Program-made: the position numbers and the translations under genes
In this document: piece after piece, positions 1 through 20,067 of the stretch
Numbering within the stretch: the stretch's first letter is position 1
Layout: every line of letters starts with the position of its first letter
Assembly (NCBI GenBank): GCA_021651055.1
Contig: JAJHOH010000001.1
Span: forward strand, 2,914,001 to 2,978,000
Direction of reading: 5' to 3'
Source of the DNA: Candidatus Manganitrophus morganii
GTDB taxonomy: Bacteria; Nitrospirota; Nitrospiria; SBBL01; Manganitrophaceae
Length of the DNA: 64,000 nt
The notes under the pieces: generated by a model
Database searches by the model: none
Seen by the model: the letters and a program-made list of their open reading frames with translations, nothing else
Told to the model about the DNA's origin: nothing

Positions 1-961
1 CGTCGGCTCCGGGACGGCGACGCGACAGATTGCCGAAATTATGCAGCGATTTGAAGAGGTCCTCCTTTGGAAGAAACCCGACCGGGTCGTCGTGGTCGGC
101 GATGTCAACTCCACGTTGGCCGCCGCGCTGGCGGCGGAGAAAATGGGAATTCCGGTGGCCCATGTCGAGGCGGGGCTCCGTAGTTTTGACCGGGCGATGC
201 CCGAAGAGACCAATCGGGTCCTCACCGACCGGCTCTCCGATCTTCTTTTTGCGACGGAGGAGAGCGCGGTTCAAAACTTGCTAAACGAAGGGGTCGAGAA
301 AGATCGAATCTTTTGGGTGGGGAACTTGATGATCGACGCTTTGATCAGTCATGCGCAGGAAGCCGAGCGATCGACGATTCTGAGAGAAATGAACGTGGCC
401 GCGCAGCAGTATGCCTTGGTCACCCTGCATCGCCCCTCCAACGTCGATACGCCGGAAGGGATGGGCCGGATTTTGACGATCCTCTCGGGGGTGGAAAAAC
501 AGATACGGATCCTCTTTCCGATCCATCCGCGGACCCGCGGGCGGATGGAGGAGTTCGGTCTGGCATCCGCAATCCGCGCCCTTCAAAACGTGACCCTCTG
601 CGAGCCGGTCGGTTATCTCGATTTCATCCGGCTGATGCGCGACGCCAAGGTGGTGTTGACCGATTCCGGGGGGATCCAGGAGGAGACCACCGCGTTGGGA
701 ATTCCCTGCCTGACCCTGCGAGAGAACACGGAGCGGCCGGTCACGATCACGGAGGGAACCAATCTTCTGACCGGGACCGATCCGGAGCGGGTCTTGGCGG
801 CGGTGATCGATATTTTGGAGGGGCGCGGGAAGCGCGGGAAGGTCCCGACCCTCTGGGACGGCCAGGCGGCCCGTCGCATCGTCCGGGTTTTGCAAAGCCG
901 ATCGACGCGTCGGGAGCCGAGTCAAGAGGTTCCTCTTTCAACGATCCTCCCCCGTTCTTAG
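1..961 (+). CDS. wecB: UDP-N-acetylglucosamine 2-epimerase (5' truncated by window edge)
   Basis: This enzyme interconverts UDP-GlcNAc and UDP-ManNAc, a cytoplasmic step that supplies ManNAc-type sugars for surface polysaccharide. The reading frame is open from base 2, so the true start lies outside the window; about 319 codons remain of a usual 360-380. Family motifs are clear: GDVNSTLA, HVEAGLRSFDRAMPEETNR, the HPRTRGRM segment and DSGGIQEE followed by RENTERP, which binds the UDP moiety. The gene leads directly into the polymerase at 975 with a 13-nt gap, so it belongs to the same polysaccharide cluster. Epimerase identity is secure; the exact sugar destination is inferred from context. 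Confidence 0.95.
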   Translation, partial: VGSGTATRQIAEIMQRFEEVLLWKKPDRVVVVGDVNSTLAAALAAEKMGIPVAHVEAGLRSFDRAMPEETNRVLTDRLSDLLFATEESAVQNLLNEGVEKDRIFWVGNLMIDALISHAQEAERSTILREMNVAAQQYALVTLHRPSNVDTPEGMGRILTILSGVEKQIRILFPIHPRTRGRMEEFGLASAIRALQNVTLCEPVGYLDFIRLMRDAKVVLTDSGGIQEETTALGIPCLTLRENTERPVTITEGTNLLTGTDPERVLAAVIDILEGRGKRGKVPTLWDGQAARRIVRVLQSRSTRREPSQEVPLSTILPRS

Positions 962-974
962 CGGAGACTGTAAC

Positions 975-2405
975 GTGGCGCAGATGGAAACAGTTCGAAC
1001 CCCTTTTCCGAAGCGGCGCTTCGGCGGATCGATGACCGCTCTCGGCTGGAGGAAAACGGCGGAGGTTTCGGAGACGGGAGGCCGATCGTTTCAGGAAACG
1101 GAGGCCCCCTCACGGCAAGAGCGGATCGCCTACGGCGCGCTCCTCTTGTTTGTCGCCCTCATCTACATTACCCCCGGGACCCTTTATCCGCCGCTGGAAG
1201 CGGTGCCGATCGCCAAAGGGGTGGCGGTGATCTCTTTTCTCTTTCTCTTCTCCGCCCTGCGAGCGAAGGGGGCCTCCTGGAGGCTCTCCGATCCGGCGAC
1301 CCTCTGGCTGATCGCCTTTGTGGCGATCGGAGGATTGTCGATTGCCACCTCCCTCTGGCGGATCTATTCCTTGAATGCGTTTCTCGACGTCTTGAAGCTG
1401 ATCCTGGTCTATCTCCTGGTCCTCCATCTCGTCGATCGCCTGGAGCGGGTCCGCCGGCTCTTCTGGGTGATGCTCTGGGCGGGGATGGTCCCGGCGGCCG
1501 GGACGCTGGCGCACTATCTCCTCAAGATCGATCTGGTCGAGGGGTATCGCGGCGCCTGGCGGGGGGTTTACGCCGATCCGAACGATCTCGCCTATAACCT
1601 GATCGTGTTGGTTCCGATCGGCCTGTCTCTTCTGGAAGCGGAGCGATCGTTTGTCAAAAGAGGTCTTGTCTTCGGCATCTTGACCGTCTTTATGATGGCC
1701 ATTTATGTGACCTTTTCCCGGGGAGGGCTCGTCGGGCTGATGGCCGTCTTCTTCTTCCAGATCCTCCGCTCGCGGAATCGGATGCTCCATTTTTCGCTCG
1801 CAACGATTCTCTTGATGGTTTTTTTAGCGGTGGCGCCGGCCCGGTATTGGGAGCGGGCCGAGACGATCTTGAAGTTCCACCACGACGAATCGGCGATGGG
1901 GCGGGTCTACGCCTGGCAGGCGGGGCTGTCGATGGTGGCCGATCGGCCGCTGCTCGGCGTGGGGCTGGGCTGTTTTGTCATGGGCTGGCCGATCTACGCC
2001 CCCGCCGAAGCGGGGACGAAGTGGCGAGCGGCGCACAACACCTTTGTGGCGGTCATGGGGGAGACCGGCCTGCTCGGACTGGCGGCGTTCGGCGCCTTTA
2101 TCGGAACGACCTTGCGGGGGGCGCAGAAAGTCAACCGTTTGGCCCGCCCGGCGCCGCGGCCGCTCTTCATCTCCCCCTCCGTCGAAAAGAAAGAACCGGC
2201 CGAAGCCCCTTCCGTGACCGAAGCAAACCGGCGGGCGGCGCTTTATGCGCGCGGTGTGGAGATCGCCCTTTGGGGATTCCTGGCGTGCAGCTTGACGCTC
2301 GGAATCGCGCGAAGCTGGCCCCCTTACCTCTTTGCCGGTCTGGCCGTGGCCCTTTACACCCTCAGAATGGCGGACGTTAGAGAAGCGCGTGGAGAATTCA
2401 AATGA
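975..2405 (+). CDS. O-antigen ligase/polymerase family (Wzy_C) membrane protein
   Basis: The 476-aa polytopic inner-membrane protein has long hydrophobic segments from about residue 55 to 290. A Wzy_C-type periplasmic loop follows, with GRVYAWQAG near residue 308, RPLLGVGLG, and AHNTFVAVMGETG near residue 352. Proteins of this family polymerise lipid-linked repeat units or ligate glycan to lipid A; which of the two cannot be told from sequence. The start chosen is GTG at 975; the first 50 residues are polar and could be trimmed to an internal ATG (for example at 984). It overlaps the flippase start by ATGA. Its position beside a Wzx-type flippase favours the polymerase role. Confidence 0.85.
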   Translation: MAQMETVRTPFPKRRFGGSMTALGWRKTAEVSETGGRSFQETEAPSRQERIAYGALLLFVALIYITPGTLYPPLEAVPIAKGVAVISFLFLFSALRAKGASWRLSDPATLWLIAFVAIGGLSIATSLWRIYSLNAFLDVLKLILVYLLVLHLVDRLERVRRLFWVMLWAGMVPAAGTLAHYLLKIDLVEGYRGAWRGVYADPNDLAYNLIVLVPIGLSLLEAERSFVKRGLVFGILTVFMMAIYVTFSRGGLVGLMAVFFFQILRSRNRMLHFSLATILLMVFLAVAPARYWERAETILKFHHDESAMGRVYAWQAGLSMVADRPLLGVGLGCFVMGWPIYAPAEAGTKWRAAHNTFVAVMGETGLLGLAAFGAFIGTTLRGAQKVNRLARPAPRPLFISPSVEKKEPAEAPSVTEANRRAALYARGVEIALWGFLACSLTLGIARSWPPYLFAGLAVALYTLRMADVREARGEFK

Positions 2406-5214: not shown

Positions 5215-6257
5215 TGAAGGTCCTCTTGATCGGTGATTATCCCCCCCCCTACGGCGGGATCTCGGTGCATGTGCAGCAACTCGCCGACTTCCTCCGGCGG
5301 CAGGGTTCCGAGTGTGTCGTGCTTGACATCGAGCGCGGGACCGATCCCAAGCCGGGAGCGATTCGGTTCAATGGGTATCTCGGTTTCCTCTGGACGTTAA
5401 TCCTTTTTTCCGGACGGCGGTATGTGAGCCACATCCATACCAACGGCCATAATTTCAAAAGCTGGCTGGCGATCGCGGTGACGGCATGGGTCGGTTTTTT
5501 CTCCGGCCTACGGAACATCGCCACCGTTCACTCCGGACTGATGCCGGCGTATGCCGCCGGGGGTCGGCGCCGCAAACTTCTGATCCGGGCCGCCGTTTGG
5601 CCGCTGGGAGGGGTGATCGCCGTCAATCAAAAGATCGAGCGGGCGCTTCTTGAGATCGGTGTTCCGCCGTCGCGCATTTCGGTCCTCCCGGCCTTCGCCC
5701 TCGGCCCGCGCGCCGAGGTGGTGCCGGCGTGGGCCGGAGATTATCGAAAACGGTTCTCCCCCCTCATCGCCTCGGCGGTTTATCTGGAAAAGGAATATGG
5801 GACCGATCTGCTGGTGAGCGCCTGCGCGGCGCTTCGGAAAAAATATCCGCGCCTCGGCTGCATCATCATGGGCTCCGGTTCGGAGGAAGAAGCCATTCGA
5901 TCCCAGATCCGGACGGAAAAAGGGGAAGATTTTCTCTTCCTGCTCGGAAACGTTCCTCATGATCTCTGTCTCTCTCTGATGGCGCAGTCCGATCTTTTTG
6001 TCCGTCCGACCCTCTTCGATGGGGATGCGATTTCGGTTCGGGAGGCGCTGGCGCTCGGTGTCCCGACCGTGGCGAGCGACGTTGGGTTTCGGCCTCACGG
6101 GACGCGGCTCTTCAAGCCGGGGGACGTCGCCGACCTGGCGCTTCAGATCGATCGGGCGCTGCAGGAGGGGCGGCCCCCCGCCGCGGCGGAGGAAATTCCT
6201 GAAAATCTGGTCCTCCTCCGGGGGGTGTATGAACGGGTGGTAAAGGAGAGACGATGA
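5211..6257 (+). CDS. Glycosyltransferase family 4 (second)
   Basis: A 348-aa GT-B glycosyltransferase that starts MKVLLIGDYPPPYGGISVH, a typical GT4 N-terminal strand and glycine loop. In the donor domain the usual EX7E is read as DGDAISVRE near residue 269, so the first acid is Asp instead of Glu; the following ALALGVPTVASDVG is normal. The start overlaps the previous stop by ATGA and the stop overlaps the next start the same way, placing it firmly in the operon. Likely role: a second sugar transfer in repeat-unit assembly. Donor and acceptor cannot be deduced. Confidence 0.88.
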   Translation: MMKVLLIGDYPPPYGGISVHVQQLADFLRRQGSECVVLDIERGTDPKPGAIRFNGYLGFLWTLILFSGRRYVSHIHTNGHNFKSWLAIAVTAWVGFFSGLRNIATVHSGLMPAYAAGGRRRKLLIRAAVWPLGGVIAVNQKIERALLEIGVPPSRISVLPAFALGPRAEVVPAWAGDYRKRFSPLIASAVYLEKEYGTDLLVSACAALRKKYPRLGCIIMGSGSEEEAIRSQIRTEKGEDFLFLLGNVPHDLCLSLMAQSDLFVRPTLFDGDAISVREALALGVPTVASDVGFRPHGTRLFKPGDVADLALQIDRALQEGRPPAAAEEIPENLVLLRGVYERVVKERR

Positions 6258-7213
6258 AGCGATCTGTAGAACAAGAAAAGGCGCCGGGACCCCTCTTCTT
6301 CAAGGACCCGTTAATCACTATCCGACGTGGGAAAAATAATGAGCCGCATCGCCCAAGCCGGCCGCTTCAGACCGTTCTTCCCAAGAACGGGGCGTCCCCT
6401 TCTCCGGGGACCCGCACGTTCTTGGGGGAGGAGGTCGATTATGTCGAGCGAGAGGAGCCGATCGACCGCGCCTCCCCCGCCTGCACGCAGAAACGCTCGG
6501 TCCTTTTCGTCAAACCGGACTACTCGATTGTTCGGGACCTTTTTTCGGGGGAGGGGGTCGTGAATATCGACTGGCTTCATTCCTTCGCGCCGCAGGCGCG
6601 GATCGAAGGGAATCTGGCCGAGGGGTTCCATATCACTACCCCCGACGGACGCCTCTGGCTGGTTGCCTTCGGAACACACATGAAGGGGGTCGAGGTGCGA
6701 CTGCATGCGACGGAAAAGCAGGTGGTAGTTCGGAGCGCGGGGCCGCTCCCGCTCTTTCTGACCACGCTGCTTTATCCCGATCACGCTTCTTCGCTCAGCC
6801 GGTATGATTTCAAATCGCTCTACTTCCCTTCGATCGAAGGGGGAAGCGCCTTTGAGGTTCTGACGGCGACCCACACCGATACGTTCCTCTTCGCACCCGC
6901 CCGGAAACGGCTTGCCCTTTCCAACGTCCGGTTCGAAGGGGAGCAGCTCTTCGTGCGACGGGACTATGTCGGGGAGATCGCGCGCGTCTTCGCCCTCTCC
7001 GGCCGATTCTGTTATTGGGAGGGGAAAACCCTTTTCGAGAGCGCGCAGCCGGTCCCCTTCCTTGAACTCTCTTATCGCGGAGAAATTTTGTACGTTCGGG
7101 GAACCCTCTCGGGACCGATCTCCTTTTATGCCGACGGGGTCGAAGAGGTGCATGTGAATGGAGAAAAGACCTATTTCACGCGGGACAGGGATCGATTGAT
7201 TCTCCATTTTTGA
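6254..7213 (+). CDS. Orphan heparinase II/III-type C-terminal domain protein
   Basis: From about residue 78 to the end (RSVLFVKPDYSIVRDLFSG, then a run of beta strands) the 319-aa product resembles the C-terminal beta-sandwich of heparinase II/III-like proteins common in exopolysaccharide clusters. Those proteins are normally 550-700 aa, with an alpha/alpha barrel catalytic domain in front. Here that domain is absent and the first 75 residues are polar, Pro/Arg-rich and featureless. The gene may be a decayed relic whose front was deleted, or a free-standing carbohydrate-binding domain. The start overlaps the previous gene by ATGA, so it is still within the transcription unit. Family assignment is moderate; catalytic activity seems unlikely. 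Confidence 0.55.
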   Translation: MKRSVEQEKAPGPLFFKDPLITIRRGKNNEPHRPSRPLQTVLPKNGASPSPGTRTFLGEEVDYVEREEPIDRASPACTQKRSVLFVKPDYSIVRDLFSGEGVVNIDWLHSFAPQARIEGNLAEGFHITTPDGRLWLVAFGTHMKGVEVRLHATEKQVVVRSAGPLPLFLTTLLYPDHASSLSRYDFKSLYFPSIEGGSAFEVLTATHTDTFLFAPARKRLALSNVRFEGEQLFVRRDYVGEIARVFALSGRFCYWEGKTLFESAQPVPFLELSYRGEILYVRGTLSGPISFYADGVEEVHVNGEKTYFTRDRDRLILHF

Positions 7214-7222
7214 GGGACGACG

Positions 7223-9094
<1,872 letters not shown>

Positions 9095-9098
9095 ACAA

Positions 9099-10304
9099 AT
9101 GAAGGAAAGCGCCGTTCGTGTTCCGTCGGATCTGTCGGGTAAGGTGGGCAGCCCCACAACCCTGGAGGAGACCGTCCGCCCTTTGATTGAACTGTCGATC
9201 AAAGGATTGGAGCGGATGTGGATGAAAGATCAAGGGCTCTTCTGTTTTACGGTGCGCGACGGCCAAAACGGTCCCGCGCCGGAAGGGGTCTCCCTCCGTT
9301 ATACGGCGATCACCCTTCTCGGCCTGCATCGCGCCGCAACGAACGGCTGGCCGGTTCCGCTCGATCTAAAGTCGATCCTCCGTCAGACGATCGACGCCGC
9401 GCCGACGACACGGAACATCGGGACCCTGGCGCTGATTCTCTGGGCGGGGGCGGCCTTGACGCAAAAGGTCGATCCGAAGGTCGAGGCGGCGATCCGGTCG
9501 CATGGTCCTTTTTATCAAGAAGCGGGCAACGGGGTCTATGCCACGACCGAGCTGGCCTGGCTGTTGATCGCCATGATCGAAGCGGCGGAGATCACCACGG
9601 GGGCCGAGCGGCATCGCTTCGAGGAGACAGCCCATCTCGCTTACCGGCTTCTGAAACGGAATTTCAATTCGAGGAGTTCGCTGTTTGCTTTCTCCACGCA
9701 ACTCTCCAGCAGCTGGACGCGGCCGCTTCGGAGCCGGCTCGGCTTTTTCGACGGGCAGGTTTATGGAATTTATTCCTTCGCGCAGTATGCGCGGCATTTC
9801 TCGGACGGGGAGGCCCTCTCCCATGCCAAACACTGCGCCGAGCGGATTTGCGATTTCCAGGGAGGGCGGGGGGAGTGGGCATGGCATTACAATGCCCTGC
9901 GGGGAAAAATGGTCGACCGTTATCCGGTCTACGCCGTCCATCAACATGGGATGGCGCCGCTCGCCCTCAAAGGGCTCTCCGAAATCTCGACCGGCGATTA
10001 CCGTGTTGAGATCACCCGGGGGCTTCGGTATCTCTTCGGCGAGAATCCCCTCGGGTTTCAATTTGTCGATGAGGCGCATTCGGTGATCTGGCGGTCGATG
10101 AAGCGGCGATCTCCGATGGCGAAAGCGATCTACATCAATAAGGTCGCCAGCTTCGTCGGGCCGACCGGCTGGATCTCGGCCCTGGATCACCCGTCGCTGA
10201 TGATGATTGATCGCGAGTGTCGCCCCTATGAGCTTGGATGGCTGCTTTTTGCCTTCTCGGACATTCCGCCGAAAAAAGAGGGGGGCCATGGACCGGCCGT
10301 CTGA
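9099..10304 (+). CDS. Conserved-looking protein of unknown function in polysaccharide cluster
   Basis: I do not recognise a family with confidence. The 401-aa product is soluble, without a signal peptide, and is mostly alpha-helical. Spaced helix pairs rich in Gly, Trp and His (SLRYTAITLLGLHRA, YATTELAWLLIAMIEAA, WAWHYNALRGKMVDRYPVYAVHQHGMAPLAL) suggest an alpha/alpha-toroid fold like that of polysaccharide lyases, six-hairpin glycosidases or terpenoid cyclases. That fold guess is inference. It follows asnB by 4 nt and overlaps the PHP gene by 17 nt, so it is co-translated with glycan genes. A role in glycan trimming or in building a modified sugar is possible but unproven. Confidence 0.6.
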   Translation: MKESAVRVPSDLSGKVGSPTTLEETVRPLIELSIKGLERMWMKDQGLFCFTVRDGQNGPAPEGVSLRYTAITLLGLHRAATNGWPVPLDLKSILRQTIDAAPTTRNIGTLALILWAGAALTQKVDPKVEAAIRSHGPFYQEAGNGVYATTELAWLLIAMIEAAEITTGAERHRFEETAHLAYRLLKRNFNSRSSLFAFSTQLSSSWTRPLRSRLGFFDGQVYGIYSFAQYARHFSDGEALSHAKHCAERICDFQGGRGEWAWHYNALRGKMVDRYPVYAVHQHGMAPLALKGLSEISTGDYRVEITRGLRYLFGENPLGFQFVDEAHSVIWRSMKRRSPMAKAIYINKVASFVGPTGWISALDHPSLMMIDRECRPYELGWLLFAFSDIPPKKEGGHGPAV

Positions 10305-11028
10305 ACGACAGATCGGAGCGCTTCATATTCACTCGGACACCTCGCATGACGCCGAGTGGCCGCTGGCGCGATGTAAAACGGTCTTCAAAGCGGAGGGGTA
10401 TCACTTCCTGGCGATGACCGAACATGCGGAGGGGCTCGACTCGGAGCAGGTGGCGGCCTGGCTGGACGAGTGTGATCGCCTCTCCGATTCGGACTGTCTG
10501 CTCCTCCCGGGGTTCGAGTTCTCCGTCGGACGGAATATCCATCTCCTCGGGTTCGGCATCCGGAAGTTGCTCCGCGGCAGGTCGATCGAAGCGCTGATCG
10601 ATCAGATCCATGAGGCGGGGGGGGTGGCTGTCTTGGCACATCCGACTCCGGCGGCGCTCAACCTGATCTATCCCGCGGCCGAAGCGCTCGATGGCATGGA
10701 GATCTGGAACACCCGCTATCACAAAGGAAGCCGTCTGCCGCTCCGGTTGTTGCGGGCGCTGGAGCAGCTCCGAGAGACGCGGCCCGCTTTCCACGGCTTT
10801 GCCGGGATCGATTTTCACAAAGGGACGCAAGACCGGCGGCTTTCCGTCGCCGTCGAATCGCCCCGAACGGCGGCCGGCATTCTGGCGGCCCTGCGGGACG
10901 GACAGTTTACGATCGAACGGGGTCCCGTTTCGATCCCGGCGACCGGGTCGCTCTCGCTGGGAGAGCAGATCAAGTTCGCGCTTCAAACCTCTTTTTCGCG
11001 GATGGAATCGGATGCGGTCTCTTCTTAA
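10288..11028 (+). CDS. PHP-domain metal-dependent hydrolase (copy 1)
   Basis: The 246-aa protein shows the PHP metal-ligand set in order: ALHIHSD, the His of MTEHAEG, the Glu of LLPGFEFS, HLLGFG, LAHPTP and the terminal D-x-H of GIDFHKG. The domain hydrolyses phosphoesters or related bonds using a polynuclear metal site. PHP proteins in capsule loci include CpsB/YwqE-type tyrosine phosphatases; the substrate here is unknown. ATG at 10288 follows a purine-rich AGAGGGGGG and gives the family start; in-frame codons upstream lie inside the previous gene. It is a clear paralog of the protein at 13211-14023 (see IEIWNT/MEIWNT and ILAALRDG/LLAALRNG). Confidence 0.85.
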   Translation: MDRPSERQIGALHIHSDTSHDAEWPLARCKTVFKAEGYHFLAMTEHAEGLDSEQVAAWLDECDRLSDSDCLLLPGFEFSVGRNIHLLGFGIRKLLRGRSIEALIDQIHEAGGVAVLAHPTPAALNLIYPAAEALDGMEIWNTRYHKGSRLPLRLLRALEQLRETRPAFHGFAGIDFHKGTQDRRLSVAVESPRTAAGILAALRDGQFTIERGPVSIPATGSLSLGEQIKFALQTSFSRMESDAVSS

Positions 11029-11992
11029 GCGAAAATTGCAGCGGGGGATCAAGTGGATGGTCCGCCTCTTTTATCCCTTCTATCTTCTGATCGATTTTTT
11101 CAGGAGACGAGAAGAGGTCCGGATCTTGATGTACCACAAAGTTTCCAATCTTCCGCCGGAGCGGGAGGTTCCCTATTGCAATGTCCCGGTCGCCTCCTTC
11201 GAGACGCAGATGCGCTTTTTGGCGAAGAGCGAGTTGGAGGTGGTTGCATTGGACGATCTCGGGGGCTGGCTGGAAGGAGGGTCTTTCGGAAGGGGACGGA
11301 AAAAAGTGGTGATCACCTTTGATGACGGTTTTCAGGATAACTATCTTTACGCCGCGCCGATTTTGAGGCGGCATCAGTTGCCGGCGACCTTCTTCGTGAT
11401 CACAGGGGCGATCGGACGCAATGCCCCTTTCGATCACCTTCAATGGGATGAATCCTCGTTGGCCGATCAAGCGGCGCACCCGGAGCCGTGGCTCCCGATG
11501 ACCTGGGGGATGCTCGGCGGGTTGAAAGAGCAGGGCCATACGATCGGATCCCATACCTGGTCCCATCGCTCACTCGCCGGTCTGACCCGGAGCGAGGTCT
11601 GGAATGAAATCGCCCAGTCGAAGAAAGAATTGGAGTCGGGCCTGCAGACGGCGATCACTCTCTTTTCTTATCCTTTTGGTTCCGCAGTCTATGGCGATTT
11701 GAATGAGGGGACGGAAGAGGCATTGAGAGAGGCGGGATACCGCTTTGCCTGCACGACCAAATGGGGGGCCAACCTGGCCGGGGAGCGTTGCTACCGGCTC
11801 AAACGAATTCCGGTTTATGACCATGACACCCTCTTCGATTTCAAGTGCAAGGTGGTCGGCGCGGCCGATTGGGTCGGATGGCTGAAGGACGGCTGGCAGA
11901 AGAGATTCCGGCGGGACGATAAAACCGAGTTCATCCCGACGATCCGAGAAGAGGGAAGAGAGATTTCCATCAACACGGAGAGATCGCCATGA
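11012..11992 (+). CDS. Polysaccharide deacetylase (NodB homology)
   Basis: The 326-aa product has an N-terminal hydrophobic stretch (VRLFYPFYLLIDFF, about residues 14-27) that may anchor it. The carbohydrate esterase 4 motifs follow: ILMYHKVS, ITFDDGFQDN (metal and base Asp pair near residue 104), GSHTWSH (HxxxH metal site near residue 181) and FSYPFG. It would remove N-acetyl groups from a polysaccharide or its lipid-linked precursor. ATG at 11012 places the start just ahead of the membrane-proximal segment and overlaps the PHP gene by 17 nt; a longer frame upstream is non-conserved. Related deacetylases occur in exosortase-linked exopolysaccharide loci. Confidence 0.9.
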   Translation: MRSLLKRKLQRGIKWMVRLFYPFYLLIDFFRRREEVRILMYHKVSNLPPEREVPYCNVPVASFETQMRFLAKSELEVVALDDLGGWLEGGSFGRGRKKVVITFDDGFQDNYLYAAPILRRHQLPATFFVITGAIGRNAPFDHLQWDESSLADQAAHPEPWLPMTWGMLGGLKEQGHTIGSHTWSHRSLAGLTRSEVWNEIAQSKKELESGLQTAITLFSYPFGSAVYGDLNEGTEEALREAGYRFACTTKWGANLAGERCYRLKRIPVYDHDTLFDFKCKVVGAADWVGWLKDGWQKRFRRDDKTEFIPTIREEGREISINTERSP

Positions 11993-13227
11993 AGGTATTT
12001 GTGACCGACGGCGCACAGAACCATGCCTTGGCGGTGGCCCGCTCCCTGGGGGCGAAGGGGGTCGAGGTGGTGGTCGGGGAATCTTCCGTCCTCTCCAAAG
12101 GGGGGTTTTCCCGCTATTGCCGGCAGCGTCGGGTCTATCCCTCCCCGGCGGAGAGTGTCGGCGGTTTCCTCTCCTGGATGGTCGAGGAGATGAAAAAAGG
12201 GGAGTATGATTTCCTCCTGCCGATGACGGAGGGGTGTCTGCTGCCGATCTCGGCGAATCGGGATCGTTTTCTTCCTTATGTCCGCCTTCCGCTCCCCTCA
12301 CATGAAGCGATCTTTCAGGCCTGCAATAAAGCAGACACCCTTGCCCTCGCGCAGCAGGAGGGGGTTCCGATTCCACAGACCTGGTTCGTGGAGGAGCTGA
12401 TGGAGCTGCCGGCCCTGGCAAAGACGATTCCTTATCCGGTCGTGATCAAGCCGAAGTGGTCTTCTTACTGGAAAGGAGACCGGATGACGTCGGGAGGAGG
12501 GGCGGCGTATGCCTTCGGGCCGGACGAGCTGGTGGAGAAGTTCCGGCGCGTCCATCAAGAAATTCCGTTCCCATTGATCCAGTCGTTTGTTCCCGGAAGA
12601 GGATATGGGCTTTACGCCCTCTTCGAGGAGGGAGAGCCGCGGGTCTTGTTCGCCCATGAGCGGCTGCGGGATGTCCGGCCGACCGGCTCGGGGAGCGCCT
12701 TGCGGAGGAGCATCCCCCCCGATCCGCTGTTGACGAAGCATGCCGTGTCGCTCCTCAAAGCGCTGAAGTGGCACGGGGTGGCGATGGTCGAATTCAAGTG
12801 GGAGCGGGGGCGCTCCGAGCCGGTTCTCATGGAAATCAACGGGCGTTTCTGGAACTCCCTTCCGCTGGCGATCGCCGCGGGGGTCGACTTTCCTTGGCTT
12901 TTGTTGCAGATGGCCCAAGGAAAGCCGTTCGACGATTTCCCGGCATATCAAACCGATCTCCTCTGCCGGTGGTTTCTCGGCGACTGCCGTCATCTCTTTT
13001 CCGTTTTGCGCGGGGCGCCGCCGGGATGGCCGGTCCCTTTTCCGGGGCGGGGCAAGACCCTTTTAGACTTTTTAAAATCGCACCGGCGGGGAATCGTCTC
13101 CGACACCTTCCGATGGGAAGACCCGATGCCGGGATTGATCGAGTGGCTCTATTTTGCCTTCACGAAAGCGCCCGGATATTTTCGAAGCTCCAAGAGGAGG
13201 CTTGCCAAACATGCCGAACCGGTTTAA
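11989..13227 (+). CDS. ATP-grasp domain enzyme (carbamoyl-phosphate-synthase/PylC-like)
   Basis: The 412-aa protein begins with a Rossmann-like strand (MKVFVTDGAQNHALAVARSLG) followed by ATP-grasp elements: PVVIKPKWSSYWKG, the glycine-rich SGGGAAYAF, and the metal/ATP site MVEFKWER...LMEINGRFWNS. ATP-grasp ligases join a carboxylate to an amine through an acyl-phosphate; similar proteins occur in polysaccharide and peptidyl-modification loci. The start overlaps the deacetylase stop by ATGA, and the end overlaps the second PHP gene by 17 nt. Substrates are unknown. Together with the asparagine synthetase upstream it hints that an amino acid may be attached to or amidated on the glycan. Confidence 0.82.
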   Translation: MKVFVTDGAQNHALAVARSLGAKGVEVVVGESSVLSKGGFSRYCRQRRVYPSPAESVGGFLSWMVEEMKKGEYDFLLPMTEGCLLPISANRDRFLPYVRLPLPSHEAIFQACNKADTLALAQQEGVPIPQTWFVEELMELPALAKTIPYPVVIKPKWSSYWKGDRMTSGGGAAYAFGPDELVEKFRRVHQEIPFPLIQSFVPGRGYGLYALFEEGEPRVLFAHERLRDVRPTGSGSALRRSIPPDPLLTKHAVSLLKALKWHGVAMVEFKWERGRSEPVLMEINGRFWNSLPLAIAAGVDFPWLLLQMAQGKPFDDFPAYQTDLLCRWFLGDCRHLFSVLRGAPPGWPVPFPGRGKTLLDFLKSHRRGIVSDTFRWEDPMPGLIEWLYFAFTKAPGYFRSSKRRLAKHAEPV

Positions 13228-14023
13228 GGCCGCGCTTCACCTTCATACCACCTATTCGGATGGGGAGCTGACCCTGGAAGAATTGAAAGCCCGGTTCCAG
13301 AAGGAAGGGTTTCGATGTTTGATGATGAGCGATCATGCCGAATCGATGACGCCGGAAGGGATGGAAAGGTATGTTGCTCAATGCCGCGCCCTCTCCGACG
13401 ATCAATTCTGCATCGTCCCAGGTCTTGAGTTTGCATATCCATTTGAGAGCGGCAGTCTTCACCTGCTCGGTTACGGCGTCAGTCGGTACCAACGCGAGGA
13501 GGAACCGGTCGAGATGGTCAAGACGATTCATCAACTGGGAGGGGTCGCGGTATTGGCCCATCCTTATCCGCCGTTGTTGCCTCAAATCGTTCCGATGAAA
13601 GGAACGATTGATGGGATCGAACTTTGGAACACGAAGTACAACGGCCGAATTGCCCCCGCCCTCTGGAATTACGAGTTCTTGAAGGAGGTGAGGAGACTCC
13701 GGCCGGAAGTCCTCGGTTTCTACGGCACCGACTTTCATTGGAAGACGCAATACGCCGGGCTAGCGGTCTGGATCGAGGCCGACGCGTTGACCCCGGCATC
13801 CCTTTTAGCGGCGCTTCGAAACGGAAAGTTTTATGCGGAAAAAGAGGGGATGCGCCTCACCCCGGACGGCTCCCTCACCTCCGATCAGAAGTCTTCCTTC
13901 GAAAGAAAGGAGCGGTTTTATCGGCTCTGGAGAAAGATGGTGGTCGGCGCGCGGGGCCCCTTCAAGGCCCTTCGTCTCCCGATCCCGCAGCGGCTCAAGG
14001 CGATGGCAAGGAAAGTGCTCTAA
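13211..14023 (+). CDS. PHP-domain metal-dependent hydrolase (copy 2)
   Basis: The 270-aa protein carries the full PHP ligand series: LHLHTTYSDGE, MSDHAES, IVPGLEFA, LHLLGYG, VLAHPYPP and FYGTDFHWK. AAGAGGAGG lies 10-15 nt upstream of the chosen ATG at 13211, which overlaps the ATP-grasp gene by 17 nt; an earlier in-frame ATG at 13154 would add a non-conserved tail. It is paralogous to the 10288 gene over nearly its whole length, with a C-terminal extension of about 45 basic residues. Catalysis would be metal-dependent phosphoester or amide hydrolysis. The retention of two copies around a deacetylase and ATP-grasp gene suggests distinct but related substrates. Confidence 0.85.
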   Translation: MPNRFKAALHLHTTYSDGELTLEELKARFQKEGFRCLMMSDHAESMTPEGMERYVAQCRALSDDQFCIVPGLEFAYPFESGSLHLLGYGVSRYQREEEPVEMVKTIHQLGGVAVLAHPYPPLLPQIVPMKGTIDGIELWNTKYNGRIAPALWNYEFLKEVRRLRPEVLGFYGTDFHWKTQYAGLAVWIEADALTPASLLAALRNGKFYAEKEGMRLTPDGSLTSDQKSSFERKERFYRLWRKMVVGARGPFKALRLPIPQRLKAMARKVL

Positions 14024-14039
14024 TTCATAGGGGGTTATC

Positions 14040-15272
14040 ATGCTTCAGGGAAAAGAGATCATCTGTTTTGCGAACGATTGGGACGGCGATCCATTGAGCA
14101 AGAAACATATTATGAAACGGCTGGCGCAACGGAATCGCATCCTCTGGGTCAACTCGATCGGAAATCGGAGCCCCAAGATCAATAAAAAAGATCTCGGCCG
14201 GATTTTCAGGAAGGCGAACCAATTTTTCCAGGGGGTCCGCGAGGTGGAGAAGAACATCTACGTCTTCTCGCCGGTGATGATTCCCTTCTACCATTCGATG
14301 GCGTTCCGAAAGGCGAACCAGCTCCTCTTGGCCGCGATGATCCGGAGACAGCTGAAACGTCTTGGTTTCTCCAAGCCGATCACCTGGACATTTGCCCCCT
14401 CCTCCGCCGATGTGGTGGGATGGCTCGGCGAATCCCAGGTGATCTACCATTGTGTCGACGAGTTCTCCGCTTTTTCGGACGCGCCTCAAACGGCGATTCA
14501 AAAGATGGAGGAGACCCTTCTGAAAAAGTCCGATATGGTGATCGTTTCGGCAAGCACCCTCCAGGAGAGCAAACGGCGGTGGAATCCGAACACCCACCTC
14601 GTTCGCCATGGCGTCGAGTACGATCACTTCAGAAAGGCGCTCGATCCTGCAACGGCCATTCCTCCGGAACTCGCGGCCCTGCCGCGGCCGATCATCGGGT
14701 TTCATGGGCTTGTGGCCGACTGGATCGACCTCCCCCTGATCCGGAAGATGGCGATCCAATATCCCAAGTGGTCGATTGTTCTCTTGGGATCGGCCACGAC
14801 CGACGTCTCGCAGATCGCCGGGTTAAAAAATGTCCATCTCCTGGGAAAGCGTCCCTACGAGAGTTTGCCCTCTTACTGCAAGGGATTCGATGCGGCGATT
14901 CTCCCCTTTGTGGTGAATCGTCTGACGCTGTATGCGAATCCTCTCAAGCTCCGGGAATATCTGGCGGCCGGCCTGCCGGTGGTCTCGACCGATCTTCCGG
15001 AGGTGCGGAGCCTCGGGGGAGACATCCGGATCGGCCGAAGCCACTCCAGTTTCATCGCGCACGTCGCCGATCTCGTTCAGAAAGAAGGGACGGGTCCTTC
15101 TCTTGCGCGTTCCAAGAGCATGGAGCAGGAGAGTTGGGATCACAAGGTGGAGCTTCTCTCGATGCTGATCGAGAAGGGGGCTTTATCCCAGGAGGGAGAT
15201 CGTTCCCGCGCGTCAGTAATCGGTCCTATCAGTCATTTAGATCCGATCGGTCGTATAAGACCGATGAAGTGA
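14040..15272 (+). CDS. Glycosyltransferase (GT-B, TuaH/GT4-like)
   Basis: The 410-aa GT-B protein starts [20 protein letters not shown] and contains [11 protein letters not shown], a pattern of the glycosyltransferases that begin with a '...DRPHHI..RLA' region. The C-terminal donor domain has [19 protein letters not shown] instead of a standard EX7E, as in this subgroup. It likely adds a sugar to the repeat unit. The last 18 or so residues are encoded by a small palindromic repeat (15221-15265), so the native C terminus has probably been replaced. It sits 16 nt after the second PHP gene. Confidence 0.85.
15246..15265. repeat. Palindromic repeat inside the 3' end of the 14040 glycosyltransferase
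   Basis: ATCGGTC-GTATAA-GACCGAT is a perfect 7-bp inverted repeat that contains the 14-mer shared with 46736-46749. It encodes part of the last codons of the glycosyltransferase. Confidence 0.65.
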
Positions 15273-16072: not shown

Positions 16073-17205
16073 GGTTTTTAGAGGGCAAGACGAACGGGGA
16101 TTCCCTCGCGCGTCTACGCGCGATGGTTTTCCGGGAGCAACAGACCCGATGGGAGGCGCTCGGTTTCTCACCGGAGTGGTCGTTCACCCTCGCGCCGATC
16201 GAGGCCGAGGGAGAAAACGCCGCCAAATATCTTGCAACCTTTTTCTCAAAAGATGAAAAACCGCAGCGGAAGGTGTTTCTGAAGCAGTATCACCATCCGC
16301 AGATCGACGGTGCCGTGGTGGAGAACGAATTCTGCGGGATTCAGATCACCCATCAGGCCTTTCAATCGACCGACCGGTTCCGCGCCCCCCAGCCTTACAG
16401 CTGCCGGCTCGGCGAGAAGATCCTTTTTATGGAGTATTGTCCCTCCGCCAGTCTGAAAAAAGTGCTTTTCCGGCCGCTTCGTTTTTCGCGCCTGTTGCTT
16501 TTGAGCCGAGAGCGTGAGAGACTGCTCGAATATATGATCGAAGCGGGCCGGCTTCTGTCGCACTTTCAGCGCATCCCGGTCAGCCACCACCCGGCGGCCG
16601 GGACGGAGACGGCGGAGGGAATCGTGCTGCGTTATGAAAAGCAGCTCTTGCGCCATCTCGGCATTTGCCGGAAAGGGGGTTTTCCGGAGGATTTGATTCA
16701 ACGGATCCAGTCTGCCGTGTTTCATCGGCTTGAAAGCCAATCCCCCTTTCCACCGATCGTTTTGCAACATTCCGATTTCGCCCCCTGGAATCTGATGGTG
16801 GGGGATCGGCATCTTTATTTGACCGATTTCCAAAACTTCACCCCCGGTTTTGCCTCCTTTGATCTGGCGTTCTTCTACTGCGCCCTGGACCTTCTCTACC
16901 GTTACCGAACCGTGGATGGGGCGCTTTTGTCCCGGATGCAGTCGGTTTTAGTCGATGCTTATCTCAATGGTCATGAAGAGGCCGGTTTTCTGGAGATGAA
17001 GCAACCCCTCCCTTTGTTTGAGGCTTTTCGATTGATGCACATGACCTACTTTGCGCAATCGATCTTTTGTATTCCCGCGGGCTCCTATTATCAATCACTC
17101 TATGCCGTTCCCTTCCGCCGCTTCTTGATCGAGTGGTTTCACCAGCACCTTGAGGATGAAGAGGGGAGCGCCGCAAAGTCGGTACGATGCCGGAAAGAAT
17201 CTTAA
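16006..17205 (+). CDS. Aminoglycoside-phosphotransferase (APH)-type kinase
   Basis: This is a kinase-like phosphotransferase of up to 399 aa. The catalytic loop [13 protein letters not shown] supplies His-x-Asp and the trailing Asn, and LTDFQN is the DFG-equivalent metal site. A conserved Lys in KVFLKQYHH probably binds ATP. APH-fold kinases in glycan loci phosphorylate small molecules or sugars; the substrate here is unknown. The first 39 residues come from a small repeat and non-conserved sequence, so ATG at 16123 ([10 protein letters not shown]) is an attractive alternative start; GTG at 16006 overlaps the previous gene by 4 nt. It overlaps the downstream hybrid kinase by 19 nt. Confidence 0.8.
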
Positions 17206-19352
17206 TCATCGATGATGAACCGCACCTCGTCATTACGCTCGAGGAGATCCTGCGGCAAGAAGGGTATGAGGTCGACTCCGCGAGAACCGGCAAAGAGGCA
17301 CTGGAGAAGCTGCGCCACGCGCCCTATGACGTCGCCATCATCGATCATCATCTCCCGGACGGAAACGGACTTGCGCTCCAGAGCGAAATTGAAAAGATCC
17401 AGCCCACTCCCGCCACGGTCCTGCTGACCGGCTACGCTTCGATCGAGACCGCCATCGAGGCCCTTCGACGCGGGGTGAGCGATTATCTTTTCAAACCGGC
17501 CCATCCGGAGGAGTTGAAGCGGTCGGTGCGGCAGGCGCTGGAGCGGAAGAAGATCTCCGAGGCGGTGACCCTTCAGCGAAAAATGGAGCTGCTTTATCAG
17601 GTCGGCCGCTCCATTACCGGGGAGACCGAAATCGATGCTTTTCTGAAAAATCTGGTTGAAAAACTTTCGGAGGTCTTGGCCCTTCCCCGCTGTCTGCTCT
17701 TTCTTTTGACTGAGGAGAGCGAAGCATTGGTGCTCAAGGCGTCGAATGTTCCGGTGGAGCGGGAGGTCCGCATTCCGGTTCGCAGAGGGGCGATCTATGA
17801 CCTCCTTCATGAGGGGAAAGAGGTCGTCATCGACGATGCACAGAAGGATCGACGGCTTCCTTCTTTATTGAAAAAGTTGCATCTCCGCTCGATGCTGATT
17901 GTTCCGGTCCTCCTCCGGGGGAACTTGCTCGGTGTCCTTTCGGTCGATTCGGGCGAAGCCCCTCACCGTTTTACCGAATCGGAGGTCAAGCTCGTTCGCT
18001 TCATCGCCGATCAGGCGGCGGTCGGCATTGAGAATATACGATACTGCCAGCGTGAGCGGGATAAAGCGAAAGAGTTCGGTCTTCTGGCGGAGATTGCGAC
18101 GACGGGGACGGAATTGCACGAGGAGCGATCGATCCTGAGTCTGGCGATCGAGAAGGCCGTTTCGCTGATGCGGGTGGATGCCGGGACGGTTTTTCTGATC
18201 GATCCGGAGCGTTGGATCCCGACCCTTTCGGTTTCGCGCGGGCCGTCGTTGGCGCCGACCGGGAGGCCGAAGCCGCTCTCCCCGCGGGGGCTGGAAGGGA
18301 TGATGGCGCTTTCTCAGAAACCGTGGGCGATTCCGAACATCGGATCGGAGAAGAAACTCCCGGCGTCGGAGCGGGGGAGGCTGAAGGGGTGGGCCTCTTA
18401 TCTCGGCGTCCCGTTGGTCTATAAGGGAATGACGCGGGGAATTCTCTCCATCGCGACCCGGCAACCGCGCAGCTTCGTTCCACGCGAGGTTGCATTGATG
18501 AACTCGATCGCCCACCAGGTGGCATTGACAATCGAGAACGTGCGTCTCTACAAATTAAACCGGGCGCATCAAGAGGAGCTGCGGCAGCTCTCGCTGAAGG
18601 TCCTCTCGACGCAGGAGGACGAGCGGAGGCGGATCTCTCGGGAGCTGCACGATGCGATGGGACAGGGTCTGTTGGCGCTCAAACTTCACCTGGAGATCCT
18701 GGCCGACCAGATCCCTCCAGAAATGACCAACCAGCGAGAGGAGATCGGGGAGGCTCACGCCATTGCAACTCAGACGATTGAGGAGATCAGAAGGCTGGTC
18801 GCCGATCTGAGGCCGCTCAAGCTGGACGATCTCGGACTGGTCCCCACCCTGCGGGGGCTGATCAAAGACTTTTCCAGGAAGTTTAAGATCCGGACCACAT
18901 TGAAACGGGTGAAACTTTACCGTCGGCTTCCCTCCGATATGGAGACGATGATCTATCGGATCGTTCAGGAGGCGCTGACCAATGTCGCCAAACATGCCCG
19001 GGCGACGCAGGTGTCGATCTGGCTGGAGCGGATTGAAGAGCAGGTCCGGGTCCGGGTGATCGACAACGGGGTCGGGTTTGATGCGACGACCCTGGCCCGG
19101 CGGCGCGCCCGCCGGTTTGGGCTGGTCGGGATTCAAGAGCGGGTCGACTTAATGGGGGGCGTTTTCCAGATCCTCTCCTGCAGAGGGCGGGGGACCGAGT
19201 TGCGGGTCGAGCTTCCCTTTGAACCGGCCGTCCAGAGACCGGAGTGGCTGCCTCCTCCGTCCGGGCCGGAACTTCGAAGGGAGCCGATCTCGACCAAGGC
19301 GACAAAGCGTCCCCTCTCGATCCGCAGGCCGCGGCGGCTTCCGCCCCATTGA
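17187..19352 (+). CDS. NarL-type sensor histidine kinase with N-terminal receiver and two GAF domains
   Basis: The soluble 721-aa protein has an N-terminal receiver (RILIIDDE, phospho-Asp D53 in VAIIDHHLPDG, Thr in LLTGYAS, Lys in FKPAHP). Two GAF-like domains follow at about residues 150-290 and 310-450. A HisKA_3 dimerisation domain has the phospho-His near residue 488 in RELHDAMGQGL, and a HATPase_c domain has VIDNGVGFD. There is no membrane segment, so it senses a cytoplasmic signal or receives phosphate through its receiver. It overlaps the APH-kinase gene by 19 nt and is followed by its likely partner regulator at 19414. It probably controls the polysaccharide operon or an associated lifestyle switch; this is inferred from position only. 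Confidence 0.93.
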   Translation: MPERILIIDDEPHLVITLEEILRQEGYEVDSARTGKEALEKLRHAPYDVAIIDHHLPDGNGLALQSEIEKIQPTPATVLLTGYASIETAIEALRRGVSDYLFKPAHPEELKRSVRQALERKKISEAVTLQRKMELLYQVGRSITGETEIDAFLKNLVEKLSEVLALPRCLLFLLTEESEALVLKASNVPVEREVRIPVRRGAIYDLLHEGKEVVIDDAQKDRRLPSLLKKLHLRSMLIVPVLLRGNLLGVLSVDSGEAPHRFTESEVKLVRFIADQAAVGIENIRYCQRERDKAKEFGLLAEIATTGTELHEERSILSLAIEKAVSLMRVDAGTVFLIDPERWIPTLSVSRGPSLAPTGRPKPLSPRGLEGMMALSQKPWAIPNIGSEKKLPASERGRLKGWASYLGVPLVYKGMTRGILSIATRQPRSFVPREVALMNSIAHQVALTIENVRLYKLNRAHQEELRQLSLKVLSTQEDERRRISRELHDAMGQGLLALKLHLEILADQIPPEMTNQREEIGEAHAIATQTIEEIRRLVADLRPLKLDDLGLVPTLRGLIKDFSRKFKIRTTLKRVKLYRRLPSDMETMIYRIVQEALTNVAKHARATQVSIWLERIEEQVRVRVIDNGVGFDATTLARRRARRFGLVGIQERVDLMGGVFQILSCRGRGTELRVELPFEPAVQRPEWLPPPSGPELRREPISTKATKRPLSIRRPRRLPPH

Positions 19353-19413
19353 TTTCGGAGCGGGAATCTGTTTCACTGAAGGATATTTCCTAACGAAGAA
19401 TGCGAGACGAAAA

Positions 19414-20067
19414 ATGGCTAAAATAAGGGTTCTGTTGGCCGATGACCACACCTTGCTTCGGCAGGGGATGCGGCGATTGTTGGAAGCGGAAGACGACTTC
19501 GAAATTGTGGGAGAGGCCGGCGAGGGGCTGGAGACGATTCACAAGGCGGAGCAGCTTCGCCCCGACGTGGTGGTCCTAGACTATGCCATGCCGGGATTGA
19601 CCGGACCGCAGGCGGCGCTTCGAATCAAGCAGATGGAGCCGAAGACCAAGCTCATTATCCTGACGATGCATGACGACGAGGAATATGTCGAAGAGGCGCT
19701 CGGCGCGGGGGCGTCGGGCTACATGCTAAAAGATTCGGCTTCCCACGAGTTGATCTCGGCGATCCGCTCGGTTTATCGGGGGGATACGTATCTCTCTCCC
19801 GGCGTCTCTAAGAAGATTGTGACCGGTTACCTTCAGCGGACGAAACGACCGGAGCCGAAGACCCCTTATGAGCAATTGACCGTTCGGGAGCGGGAAATCC
19901 TCCGGCTGCTGGCCGAGGGGCATTCCGCAAAAGAGGTTTCGCGCCTTCTTAATATTCAGCCCAAAACGGTCGACGCGCATCGATCCAACCTCATGAAGAA
20001 GCTGGGACTCCACTCCCGCACCGATCTGATTAAATACGCGATCAGGCGAAAAATCATAAAGGTGTAG
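19414..20067 (+). CDS. LuxR/NarL-family response regulator
   Basis: The 217-aa two-domain regulator has a receiver (RVLLADDHTLLRQG, phospho-Asp D56 in VVVLDYAMPG, Thr in LTMHDD, Lys in MLKDSAS) and a C-terminal GerE helix-turn-helix (LTVREREILRLLAEGHS...LNIQPKTVDAHRSN). It lies 61 nt after the HisKA_3 kinase, which is the normal partner type for this output domain. ATG at 19414 begins the conserved receiver. The TAG stop is formed by the first bases of a palindromic repeat (20063-20120), so the transcript may end or be processed there. Target genes are unknown. Confidence 0.95.
   Translation: MAKIRVLLADDHTLLRQGMRRLLEAEDDFEIVGEAGEGLETIHKAEQLRPDVVVLDYAMPGLTGPQAALRIKQMEPKTKLIILTMHDDEEYVEEALGAGASGYMLKDSASHELISAIRSVYRGDTYLSPGVSKKIVTGYLQRTKRPEPKTPYEQLTVREREILRLLAEGHSAKEVSRLLNIQPKTVDAHRSNLMKKLGLHSRTDLIKYAIRRKIIKV

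Follow-up and report, generated by a model that had tools for sequence, protein, structure and literature searches.

Linked NodB-type deacetylase, ATP-grasp and PHP genes in a glycan operon of Candidatus Manganitrophus: a possible glycan-modification cassette

Four overlapping genes of Candidatus Manganitrophus morganii raise the question of why two PHP-type metallohydrolases lie around a polysaccharide deacetylase and an ATP-grasp ligase, and whether these enzymes serve one pathway. The genes are found in a window of 64,000 nucleotides, which is the whole stretch of DNA that was analysed (Table 1). The original prediction described a deacetylase and a ligase flanked by two PHP proteins in a glycan operon; all four open reading frames are present with the predicted boundaries. 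PHP1, the deacetylase, the ATP-grasp protein and PHP2 are part of a Candidatus Manganitrophus glycan operon, which is of the Wzy type. The overlaps are 17 bases (U401/PHP1), 17 bases (PHP1/deacetylase), 4 bases (deacetylase/ATP-grasp) and 17 bases (ATP-grasp/PHP2). Purifying selection acts on each of the four genes. An Rfam scan of the whole window gave no match above the gathering scores.

Table 1. Genes of the glycan operon in the window
Feature	Coordinates	Strand	Remarks
wecB, UDP-GlcNAc 2-epimerase	41..961	+	TIGR00236 285.8 bits, above cut-off; amino-sugar precursor supply
Wzy/O-antigen-ligase family polymerase	975..2405	+	PF04932 1e-18
asnB-type glutamine amidotransferase	7223..9094	+	PF00733 1.8e-103; neighbour, outside core
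U401, genus protein without family, 401 aa	9099..10304	+	neighbour, outside core
PHP1, PHP-type metallohydrolase, 246 aa	10288..11028	+	ATG start; paralogue seen only within genus
NodB/CE4-type polysaccharide deacetylase, 326 aa	11012..11992	+	ATG start; PF01522; TFDDG, SHTWSH
ATP-grasp ligase, carbamoyl-phosphate-synthase-like/ATPgrasp_Ter group, 412 aa	11989..13227	+	PF15632, PF02786
PHP2, PHP-type metallohydrolase, 270 aa	13211..14023	+	ATG start; PF02811
GT-B glycosyltransferase, TuaH-like	14040..15272	+	PF13692 1.2e-8; 16 bp 3' of PHP2

The deacetylase matches PF01522 at 98.9 bits (E 2.6e-28; curated cut-off 23.1), and the two motifs found in its translation correspond to TFDDG and an HxxxH-type motif, which we take to be the catalytic motifs of NodB/CE4 deacetylases. 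Its N-terminus, when read by eye, has a hydrophobic stretch that could anchor at the membrane. The ATP-grasp protein scores above the cut-offs of PF15632 (32.8 bits, E 6.6e-8; cut-off 29.1) and PF02786 (27.7 bits, E 2.4e-6; cut-off 19.8), and in a 17-row alignment E282, N284 and R286 are invariant and K154 nearly so; these are presumably the metal/ATP residues.

PHP2 is above the cut-off of PF02811 (31.3 bits; cut-off 26.4), and PHP1 is below it at 14.5 bits and is therefore assigned to the PHP superfamily via homology to PHP2, the two proteins being 36% identical across an alignment of 239 columns (E 3e-49). Judged from their sequences, PHP1 and PHP2 are true paralogues, with a weak sister grouping in the tree (support 84/61). 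H10, H12, D17, H42, E73, H84, H117, D174 and H176 (PHP2 numbering) are invariant in all nine aligned genus rows, and we take these to be the metal ligands, based on alignment to solved PHP proteins and on known features of the family. The kinship and common ligand series that had been predicted are therefore present in both proteins, and the predicted matching C-terminal pattern holds up to about residue 240, beyond which PHP2 has about 26 further residues. In a 19-row PHP alignment across loci, six ligand positions are invariant and the other three (H12, D17 and H42) are missing in locus L049 alone. The predicted structure of PHP2 (pLDDT 91.7) resembles TM0559 (2anu, Z 22.0) and RNase AM (9etk and 7ug9, Z 16.1 and 15.6), which have the fold and ligand series in common with it but are only about 20-26% identical, with no sign of common partners or substrate. 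The best NCBIfam match of both PHPs is the CehA/McbA metallohydrolase family NF038032, to which they are not assigned, as 68.4 and 68.9 bits are below the cut-off of 80. No other Pfam PHP family, including the CpsB/Wzb/YwqE type, matches either protein at E<=0.1.

The order PHP1-deacetylase-ATP-grasp-PHP2 is also present in three other Manganitrophus genomes (G002, G003 and G005), as well as in G004, in whose assembly PHP1, the ATP-grasp gene and several others are broken between frames. The part of G001 that was seen is a single 3.3-kb contig, beginning inside the deacetylase and continuing with ATP-grasp, PHP2 and the next gene. The original prediction had been staked beforehand on the PHP pair not being random in related genomes, and it stands in this respect; the bracketing by two PHPs was seen in Manganitrophus only, and the other cassette loci carry one PHP. 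In most of these loci, the PHP is directly 3' of the ATP-grasp gene, which is the position that PHP2 takes in Manganitrophus. PHP1 has a dN/dS of 0.18-0.26 in the within-genus comparison. The Manganitrophus PHP was duplicated, resulting in two diverged, still constrained copies, which presumably serve two related substrates.

The host locus also encodes the amino-sugar proteins GlmS-like and WecB. The wecB frame opens before the window, with its TIGR00236 match running from profile position 76, and the upstream portion is found in L117 at 16808-17301. The glycosyltransferase next to PHP2 is below the cut-off of the TuaH family NF047676 (77.4 bits; cut-off 550). Just upstream of PHP1 lie asnB and the 401-residue gene, as predicted. 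At E<=0.1, neither Pfam nor NCBIfam matches U401, and among 295 genomes sampled in the phylum it is found in G000 and G005 only. Four sequences went into the predicted structure of U401, which is of low confidence (pLDDT 59.8) and weakly resembles GH88/GH105/GH76 enzymes, with unsaturated glucuronyl hydrolases best (E 1.4e-3; E 0.53 for the sequence), which hints at a possible alpha/alpha barrel fold.

The linkage of the families was examined in loci chosen by PHP sequence alone. In a pooled check of 21 genomes, an ATP-grasp homologue at E<=1e-25 is present in 19 (one copy each, two in G000), and in 18 of these 19 genomes having both families it is no more than 1.2 kb away from the PHP. The linked genomes belong to Patescibacteria, Fibrobacterota, Gemmatimonadota, Alphaproteobacteria, Acidobacteriota, Bacillota and Manganitrophus. 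The independent profile PF01522 is found within 2 kb of the PHP/ATP-grasp pair in 16/19 genomes, against 0.26 expected under uniform placement, a null that is lenient because glycan genes cluster. A purpose-built deacetylase profile adds L043 and L049, both of which belonged to its training set. Six held-out genomes (E<=1e-40) were also considered, five of which have the ATP-grasp within 1.2 kb and the deacetylase within 2 kb; in the sixth (G343), ATP-grasp and deacetylase are side by side on another contig.

A peptide-based search returned 25 PHP loci (3 Manganitrophus and 22 others), which is not a census because it is limited to loci carrying one of two short peptides. Outside the genus, the ATP-grasp is directly beside the PHP in 12 of the 22, and it is absent there in the other ten (L053-L057 and L059-L063), nine of which, all with weaker PHP similarity, are omitted from alignment A3, with L053 retained. 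Linkage also follows the PHP score in a control with PHPs left out of profile building: the fetched stretch holds an ATP-grasp for six of seven PHPs at >=149 bits (L075, L110-L114 and L116, with L112 as the exception) and for one of 23 at <=104 bits (L071 with; L115 and 21 other loci without). In the Patescibacterium locus L045, deacetylase and ATP-grasp are fused in a single 688-aa frame, indicating that the two share a pathway; together with the ATP need of the ATP-grasp domain, this implies a cytosolic site. On a haloarchaeal plasmid (L071), deacetylase, PHP and ATP-grasp overlap in a row. Due to the cross-phylum linkage, the fusion and this gene row, the core is deacetylase, ATP-grasp and PHP. 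The larger set of the original prediction is narrowed accordingly: homologues of asnB occur in 2/22 (L043 and L051) and of U401 in 0/22 distant PHP loci (tblastn E<=1e-3), and neither is a core member because neither follows the cassette to other loci.

The occurrence of the cassette is rare and patchy, in unrelated phyla, as seen in 1720 genome look-ups (repeats included); Roseibium aestuarii and Natribaculum luteum are cultured carriers. A Terriglobia genome (G322) has ATP-grasp and PHP with no neighbouring deacetylase, a Woesearchaeota genome (G324) has a PHP at 272 bits and no ATP-grasp, and L115 (PHP 3e-27) has no ATP-grasp nearby, nor any in its genome at E<=1e-25. Ten PHP-less plasmid relatives of the ATP-grasp were examined and have other gene settings, indicating that this family is not tied to the cassette chemistry. 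In favour of a joint role of deacetylase and ligase, a Priestia plasmid (L083) has a deacetylase of a different family, PIG-L, one gene away from an ATP-grasp of the cassette family, the intervening gene being a GT4. On the ATP-grasp tree, PHP linkage must have changed at least twice, judging by the starred branches (four times in the best tree), so the linked sequences do not form one clean clade. Plasmid searches by PHP gave six records, L075 with the triad and L076, L077 and L124-L126 with neither partner; further such searches gave the L075 record only. With the L071 PHP, eight records including the query were found, and the profiles detect neither ATP-grasp nor deacetylase in L120-L123 and L127-L129. 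IMG/VR scans for phage carriage gave one weak match and then none, and the ATP-grasp query found one unannotated record in a phage collection, at 22% identity.

What the three enzymes do together can be proposed tentatively from their families. They may form a three-enzyme glycan-modification cassette for de-N-acetylation, ATP-grasp amide ligation to the freed amine and a PHP phosphoester step, a reading that we consider quite possible, at slightly under an even chance. The NodB-type deacetylase would work in the cytosol on a carrier-linked glycan intermediate and strip the N-acetyl group off one of its hexosamines, and the ATP-grasp ligase would activate a carboxylate, most likely of an amino acid or another small acid, and form an amide with the freed amine. 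In the least certain step, not necessarily the last, the PHP would cleave a phosphoester on the same intermediate, for example a lipid-linked sugar phosphate. The modified unit would then be flipped and polymerised via the Wzx/Wzy genes of the operon. We infer that the predicted sugar deacetylation, amino-acid attachment and phosphoester hydrolysis is still the best mechanism; what has been observed is that the three families are linked physically across genomes, that a deacetylase is fused to an ATP-grasp in one case, that the catalytic residues are kept and that selection on the genes is purifying. The acceptor of the ATP-grasp enzyme could also be something other than a sugar amine.

Parts of this logic are known from other systems. 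In Nod-factor synthesis, a NodB deacetylase frees a hexosamine amine that is acylated by a second enzyme, NodA. The cassette would follow the same order of NodB-type deacetylation and then N-acylation, but it has an ATP-grasp ligase in place of the NodA acyltransferase and in addition a PHP hydrolase, and lies in a Wzy polymer locus. In mycothiol and bacillithiol synthesis (MshA/MshA2/MshB/MshC and BshA/BshB/BshC), a glycosyltransferase, in some cases a phosphatase, a deacetylase and amino-acid ligation act in series, which is comparable to the enzyme series of the cassette. However, the cassette deacetylase is of the NodB type (PF01522) and not PIG-L, its ligase is an ATP-grasp and not MshC/BshC, and the setting is a glycan export locus, so the cassette is not a member of these systems. 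XrtA/PEP-CTERM loci also have, by family names, an asparagine-synthase-like amidotransferase and a deacetylase, but those of the window are far under the XrtA-specific cut-offs (TIGR03108, 592.1 against 816.9 bits; TIGR03006, 25 against 276.2 bits), and membership is rejected.

A hint on the PHP substrate comes from three haloarchaeal plasmids (L120-L122), each with a relative of the L071 PHP directly 3' of a UbiA-type prenyltransferase, which is annotated in 2/3 plasmids as decaprenyl-phosphate phosphoribosyltransferase. At such a position, one would expect a phosphatase for sugar phosphates. The argument is a distant one: these relatives share 34-39% identity with the L071 PHP and score 90-95 bits with the cassette PHP profile, and L123, a fourth such relative, lacks a UbiA gene next to it. 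Like the cassette, this UbiA-PHP-LPG-synthase-like operon has a PHP beside lipid-linked-sugar enzymes, but no ATP-grasp or deacetylase is present within the 8.5-kb stretches. A PHP phosphoesterase in a UbiA neighbourhood is also mentioned in PMC12419801.

Other roles for the PHP have to be considered. It might be an editing or maturation amidohydrolase, either taking off acyl or amino-acid groups that were misattached or trimming an amide or carbamate which the ligase has made, so that the two enzymes form a make-and-break pair. PHP-superfamily enzymes also cut bonds besides phosphoesters, as in the CehA/McbA carbamate hydrolases, and the CehA/McbA family is the top match of both PHPs, though under its cut-off; the PHP also accompanies the ATP-grasp without an adjacent deacetylase in G322. 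On the other hand, the best-scoring solved structures bear titles that name phosphoesterases, for the most part predicted ones, or RNase AM, with the AMP-bound 2yb1, titled amidohydrolase, as a counterexample, and the UbiA-linked relatives suggest a phosphate substrate, which leaves this role rather unlikely. It is most improbable that the PHPs are CpsB/Wzb/YwqE-type tyrosine phosphatases that tune polysaccharide export and whose placement is unrelated to the ligase: no such family matched, the PHP tracks the ATP-grasp across phyla, and in a Pfam scan of part of the locus genes, the Wzz-like protein has the domains Wzz and GNVR only, with no kinase domain, although PHP-type tyrosine phosphatases are a known part of exopolysaccharide loci according to PMC10816263 and PMC2364625.

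The ligase and deacetylase might also act apart: the deacetylase would work later, on the finished polymer, and what the ATP-grasp builds would be a donor of carbamoyl or dipeptide-like type. The solved sequences nearest to the ATP-grasp are 2pn1 and CarB, with no characterised sugar ligase, and the hydrophobic stretch of the window deacetylase could hold it at the membrane; against this, the L045 fusion sets both domains on one membrane side, and the Patescibacterial and L048 deacetylases have no obvious signal peptide when read by eye, making separate action unlikely. Finally, many modifying enzymes cluster in glycan loci, so the three families, common there, could have been shuffled together without a shared pathway, and the patchiness and linkage changes fit this. 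The 18/19 adjacency, the overlapping genes, the fusion and the held-out result (5/6) make such a bystander effect very improbable, as does the deacetylase's absence by the purpose-built profile from all ten PHP-less ATP-grasp loci, where L070 and L072 have annotated deacetylases about 5 and 7 kb away.

No description of deacetylase, ATP-grasp and PHP together was found in the open-licence PMC literature; Iyer et al. 2009, an amidoligase survey outside this scope, may mention them. PMC2824669 concerns an animal ATP-grasp, and the words polysaccharide, PHP, glycosyl and deacetylase are absent from the main text of PMC9040806 on Manganitrophaceae. Annotation gives the deacetylase, ligase and hydrolase of this recurring unit separate and generic names. 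In the broadest reading, which is somewhat unlikely, the cassette would be an unrecognised route to aminoacyl-amino-sugar units in bacteria and at least one archaeon, with phosphatase, deacetylase and ligase acting in a mycothiol-like order on a lipid-linked unit, and the surface polymer would bear amino-acid amides that differ by lineage. In Manganitrophus, the decorated polymer would perhaps be the matrix around the manganese-oxide nodules. If the proposed order is true, amino-acid-substituted amino sugars become predictable from genome sequence, and the cassette offers a well-defined set of three enzymes for assay. The patchy spread over unrelated phyla would fit horizontal transfer of one chemistry. 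For these manganese-oxidising autotrophs, the cassette also opens a first way into the study of their extracellular polymer.

The genes for the NodB deacetylase, the ATP-grasp ligase and the two PHP metallohydrolases are located in a Wzy-dependent glycan operon of Candidatus Manganitrophus morganii (single contig, 4.29 Mb; the window spans C1:2914001-2978000). Upstream of the window, Wza-like and Wzz-like export proteins, a bacterial sugar transferase, a GlmS-like protein, a GT2, two Acetyltransf_6 proteins and a further NodB deacetylase are encoded (L117). Within the window, the order is WecB, Wzy, Wzx, glycosyltransferases, a weak heparinase-like protein, asnB and U401 (a 401-aa genus protein without family), followed by PHP1, deacetylase, ATP-grasp, PHP2, a third glycosyltransferase, a hexapeptide-repeat transferase, an APH-type kinase, a response regulator-histidine kinase hybrid and a LuxR-type regulator. 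Wzx, gt1, gt2 and both regulators were named by reading translations. From Wzy to the hybrid regulator, genes are separated by -19 to +17 bases. The two regulators come after the glycan operon genes, with overlaps or short gaps, and are possibly a dedicated control of this operon. The sole family signal of the heparinase-like protein (319 aa) is a weak heparinase II/III C-terminal match, and a homologue is absent from the corresponding stretch of another Manganitrophus genome (G005).

Features and their coordinates
Feature	Record	Position	Strand
Heparinase-like protein	window	6254-7213	
asnB	window	7223-9094	
U401	window	9099-10304	
PHP1	window	10288-11028	+
NodB deacetylase	window	11012-11992	+
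ATP-grasp	window	11989-13227	+
PHP2	window	13211-14023	+
Hybrid and LuxR-type regulators	window	17187-20067	
Second ATP-grasp family member	G000:C1 (L118 6514-7722)	1812558-1813562	
Paceibacterota PHP	L049	8546-9343	
Priestia megaterium plasmid set	L083	3025-7222	
Haloarchaeal UbiA-PHP operon	L120	3011-5661	
Haloarchaeal UbiA-PHP operon	L121	3040-5628	
Haloarchaeal UbiA-PHP operon	L122	2976-5604	

The original prediction, that the two PHPs are related and have a common ligand series, was borne out by their alignment (36% identity, E 3e-49) and by nine ligand positions that are invariant in nine genus rows. The gene-order look-up it proposed recovered U401-PHP1-deacetylase-ATP-grasp-PHP2 in G002, G003, G004 and G005. 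PHP2 is 99% identical to its counterpart in Candidatus Manganitrophus sp. GAC4 (L039), the nearest named record; in a 98-genome search, it was found in 5/5 other genus genomes and, at 1e-5, in none of the 12 listed same-order genomes outside the genus. Among 295 genomes sampled in the phylum, the PHP profile (1e-20) and the U401 profile (1e-8) matched only G000 (the genome studied here) and G005. Within the genus, dN/dS is 0.18-0.26 for PHP1, 0.10-0.11 for PHP2, 0.08-0.13 for ATP-grasp, 0.13-0.17 for the deacetylase (last codons omitted) and 0.08-0.19 for U401, rough ratios from three pairs per gene with several dS values above 1. In the GAC4 assembly (G004, L036), several operon genes, including PHP1 and ATP-grasp, are split between frames, which looks like sequencing error of that assembly.

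A pattern scan of the genome collection with the genus PHP alignment gave 25 loci, 22 of them outside the genus. With the window proteins as queries, an ATP-grasp homologue (25-38% identity) was found directly 5' of the PHP in 12 of these 22: five Patescibacteria, three Bacillota and one each from Fibrobacterota, Gemmatimonadota, Roseibium and Terriglobia. Pfam places a NodB deacetylase just upstream of ATP-grasp in L047, upstream with a glycosyltransferase in between in L042 and 3' of the PHP in L050; the L043 match falls short of the cut-off, and in L045 both domains are fused in one 688-aa frame. The haloarchaeal Natribaculum luteum plasmid (L071) carries overlapping annotated genes for deacetylase, PHP and ATP-grasp. 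The Paceibacterota PHP of L049 lacks three ligand positions (H12, D17, H42), yet adjoins ATP-grasp and deacetylase, and is perhaps a non-catalytic partner. The set is also present on a plasmid of 24 kb deposited as Bacillus velezensis (L075, NZ_CP061940.1); its PHP shares 60% identity with the Roseibium PHP, and mislabelling or contamination of the record is probable. The genome studied here encodes a second, diverged ATP-grasp family member (E 6e-53).

The cassette is rare. Counting the query genomes, PHP profile A3 matched 7/200 genomes in the phylum of G317 (plus one weak match, G326, 3e-27, at the cut-off of 1e-25 used there) and, at 1e-40, 1/239 in the phylum of G314, 1/240 in the class of G319, 2/149 in the phylum of G322 and 1/148 in the class of G321. 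A pooled check covered 21 genomes (G000, 13 from the pattern scan, six new and G326). ATP-grasp was found in 19 at 1e-25; the genome search gave none in G324 (Woesearchaeota) and G326. PHP and ATP-grasp lie at most 1.2 kb apart in 18 of the 19, the exception being G343, where ATP-grasp is beside a deacetylase on a contig other than that of the PHP. PF01522 was found within 2 kb of either gene in 16/19, the exceptions being G314, G320 and G322 (Terriglobia); in G314 and G320, a divergent deacetylase was detected by a purpose-built profile whose training set included them. Uniform placement would give 0.26/19 (P about 1e-28), a null that ignores glycan-gene clustering; therefore, the held-out genomes, with both neighbours in 5/6, and the fusion outweigh this P value.

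For PHPs outside profile training, ATP-grasp was present in the fetched stretch for 6/7 scoring at least 149 bits and for 1/23 scoring at most 104 bits. From two overlapping record sets (68 and 95), L071 and ten plasmid loci having an ATP-grasp relative without PHP were sampled; the purpose-built profile detected a deacetylase in none of these ten, and annotated deacetylases lie ~5 and ~7 kb away in L070 and L072. On the Priestia megaterium plasmid L083, a PIG-L deacetylase stands one gene from a member of this ATP-grasp family; a GT4 and a phosphotransferase belong to the same group, and spore-coat and exosporium genes are near. This is a parallel deacetylase-ligase arrangement that uses a different deacetylase family.

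Both the linkage and the fusion indicate a common cytosolic pathway for deacetylase and ligase. The enzyme families suggest that the deacetylase would expose an amine, which the ATP-grasp ligase, whose nearest sequences are 2pn1 and CarB, would acylate. Of the three steps, that of the PHP is the least certain. The PHP2 predicted model (mean pLDDT 91.7) is closest to TM0559 (2anu; Z 22.0, 2.5 A over 194 residues; Foldseek E 2e-12), followed by BVU_3505 (3e38; Z 21.3) and RNase AM (9etk; Z 16.1), and profile alignment with 2anu pairs HxH, D, H, E, H, H and DxH. This predicted shared fold does not settle whether a phosphoester is the bond cut; an amide or carbamate hydrolase is also possible, as the PHP resembles CehA/McbA. 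A sugar-phosphate phosphatase is favoured because of the PHP superfamily and three haloarchaeal operons (L120-L122), where a PHP related to that of L071 directly follows a UbiA-type prenyltransferase; a fourth relative (L123) does not. These three operons also encode an LPG-synthase-like membrane protein, and a DolP-mannose transferase and an NAD-dependent enzyme are in the surroundings.

Each of the three enzyme families is already known. No name for the three-family unit was found in open-licence papers, a scope that leaves out one relevant survey. The deacetylase-ATP-grasp-PHP unit would be a variant among glycan-modification cassettes. In Manganitrophus, the presence of two diverged PHPs points to a pair of related substrates.
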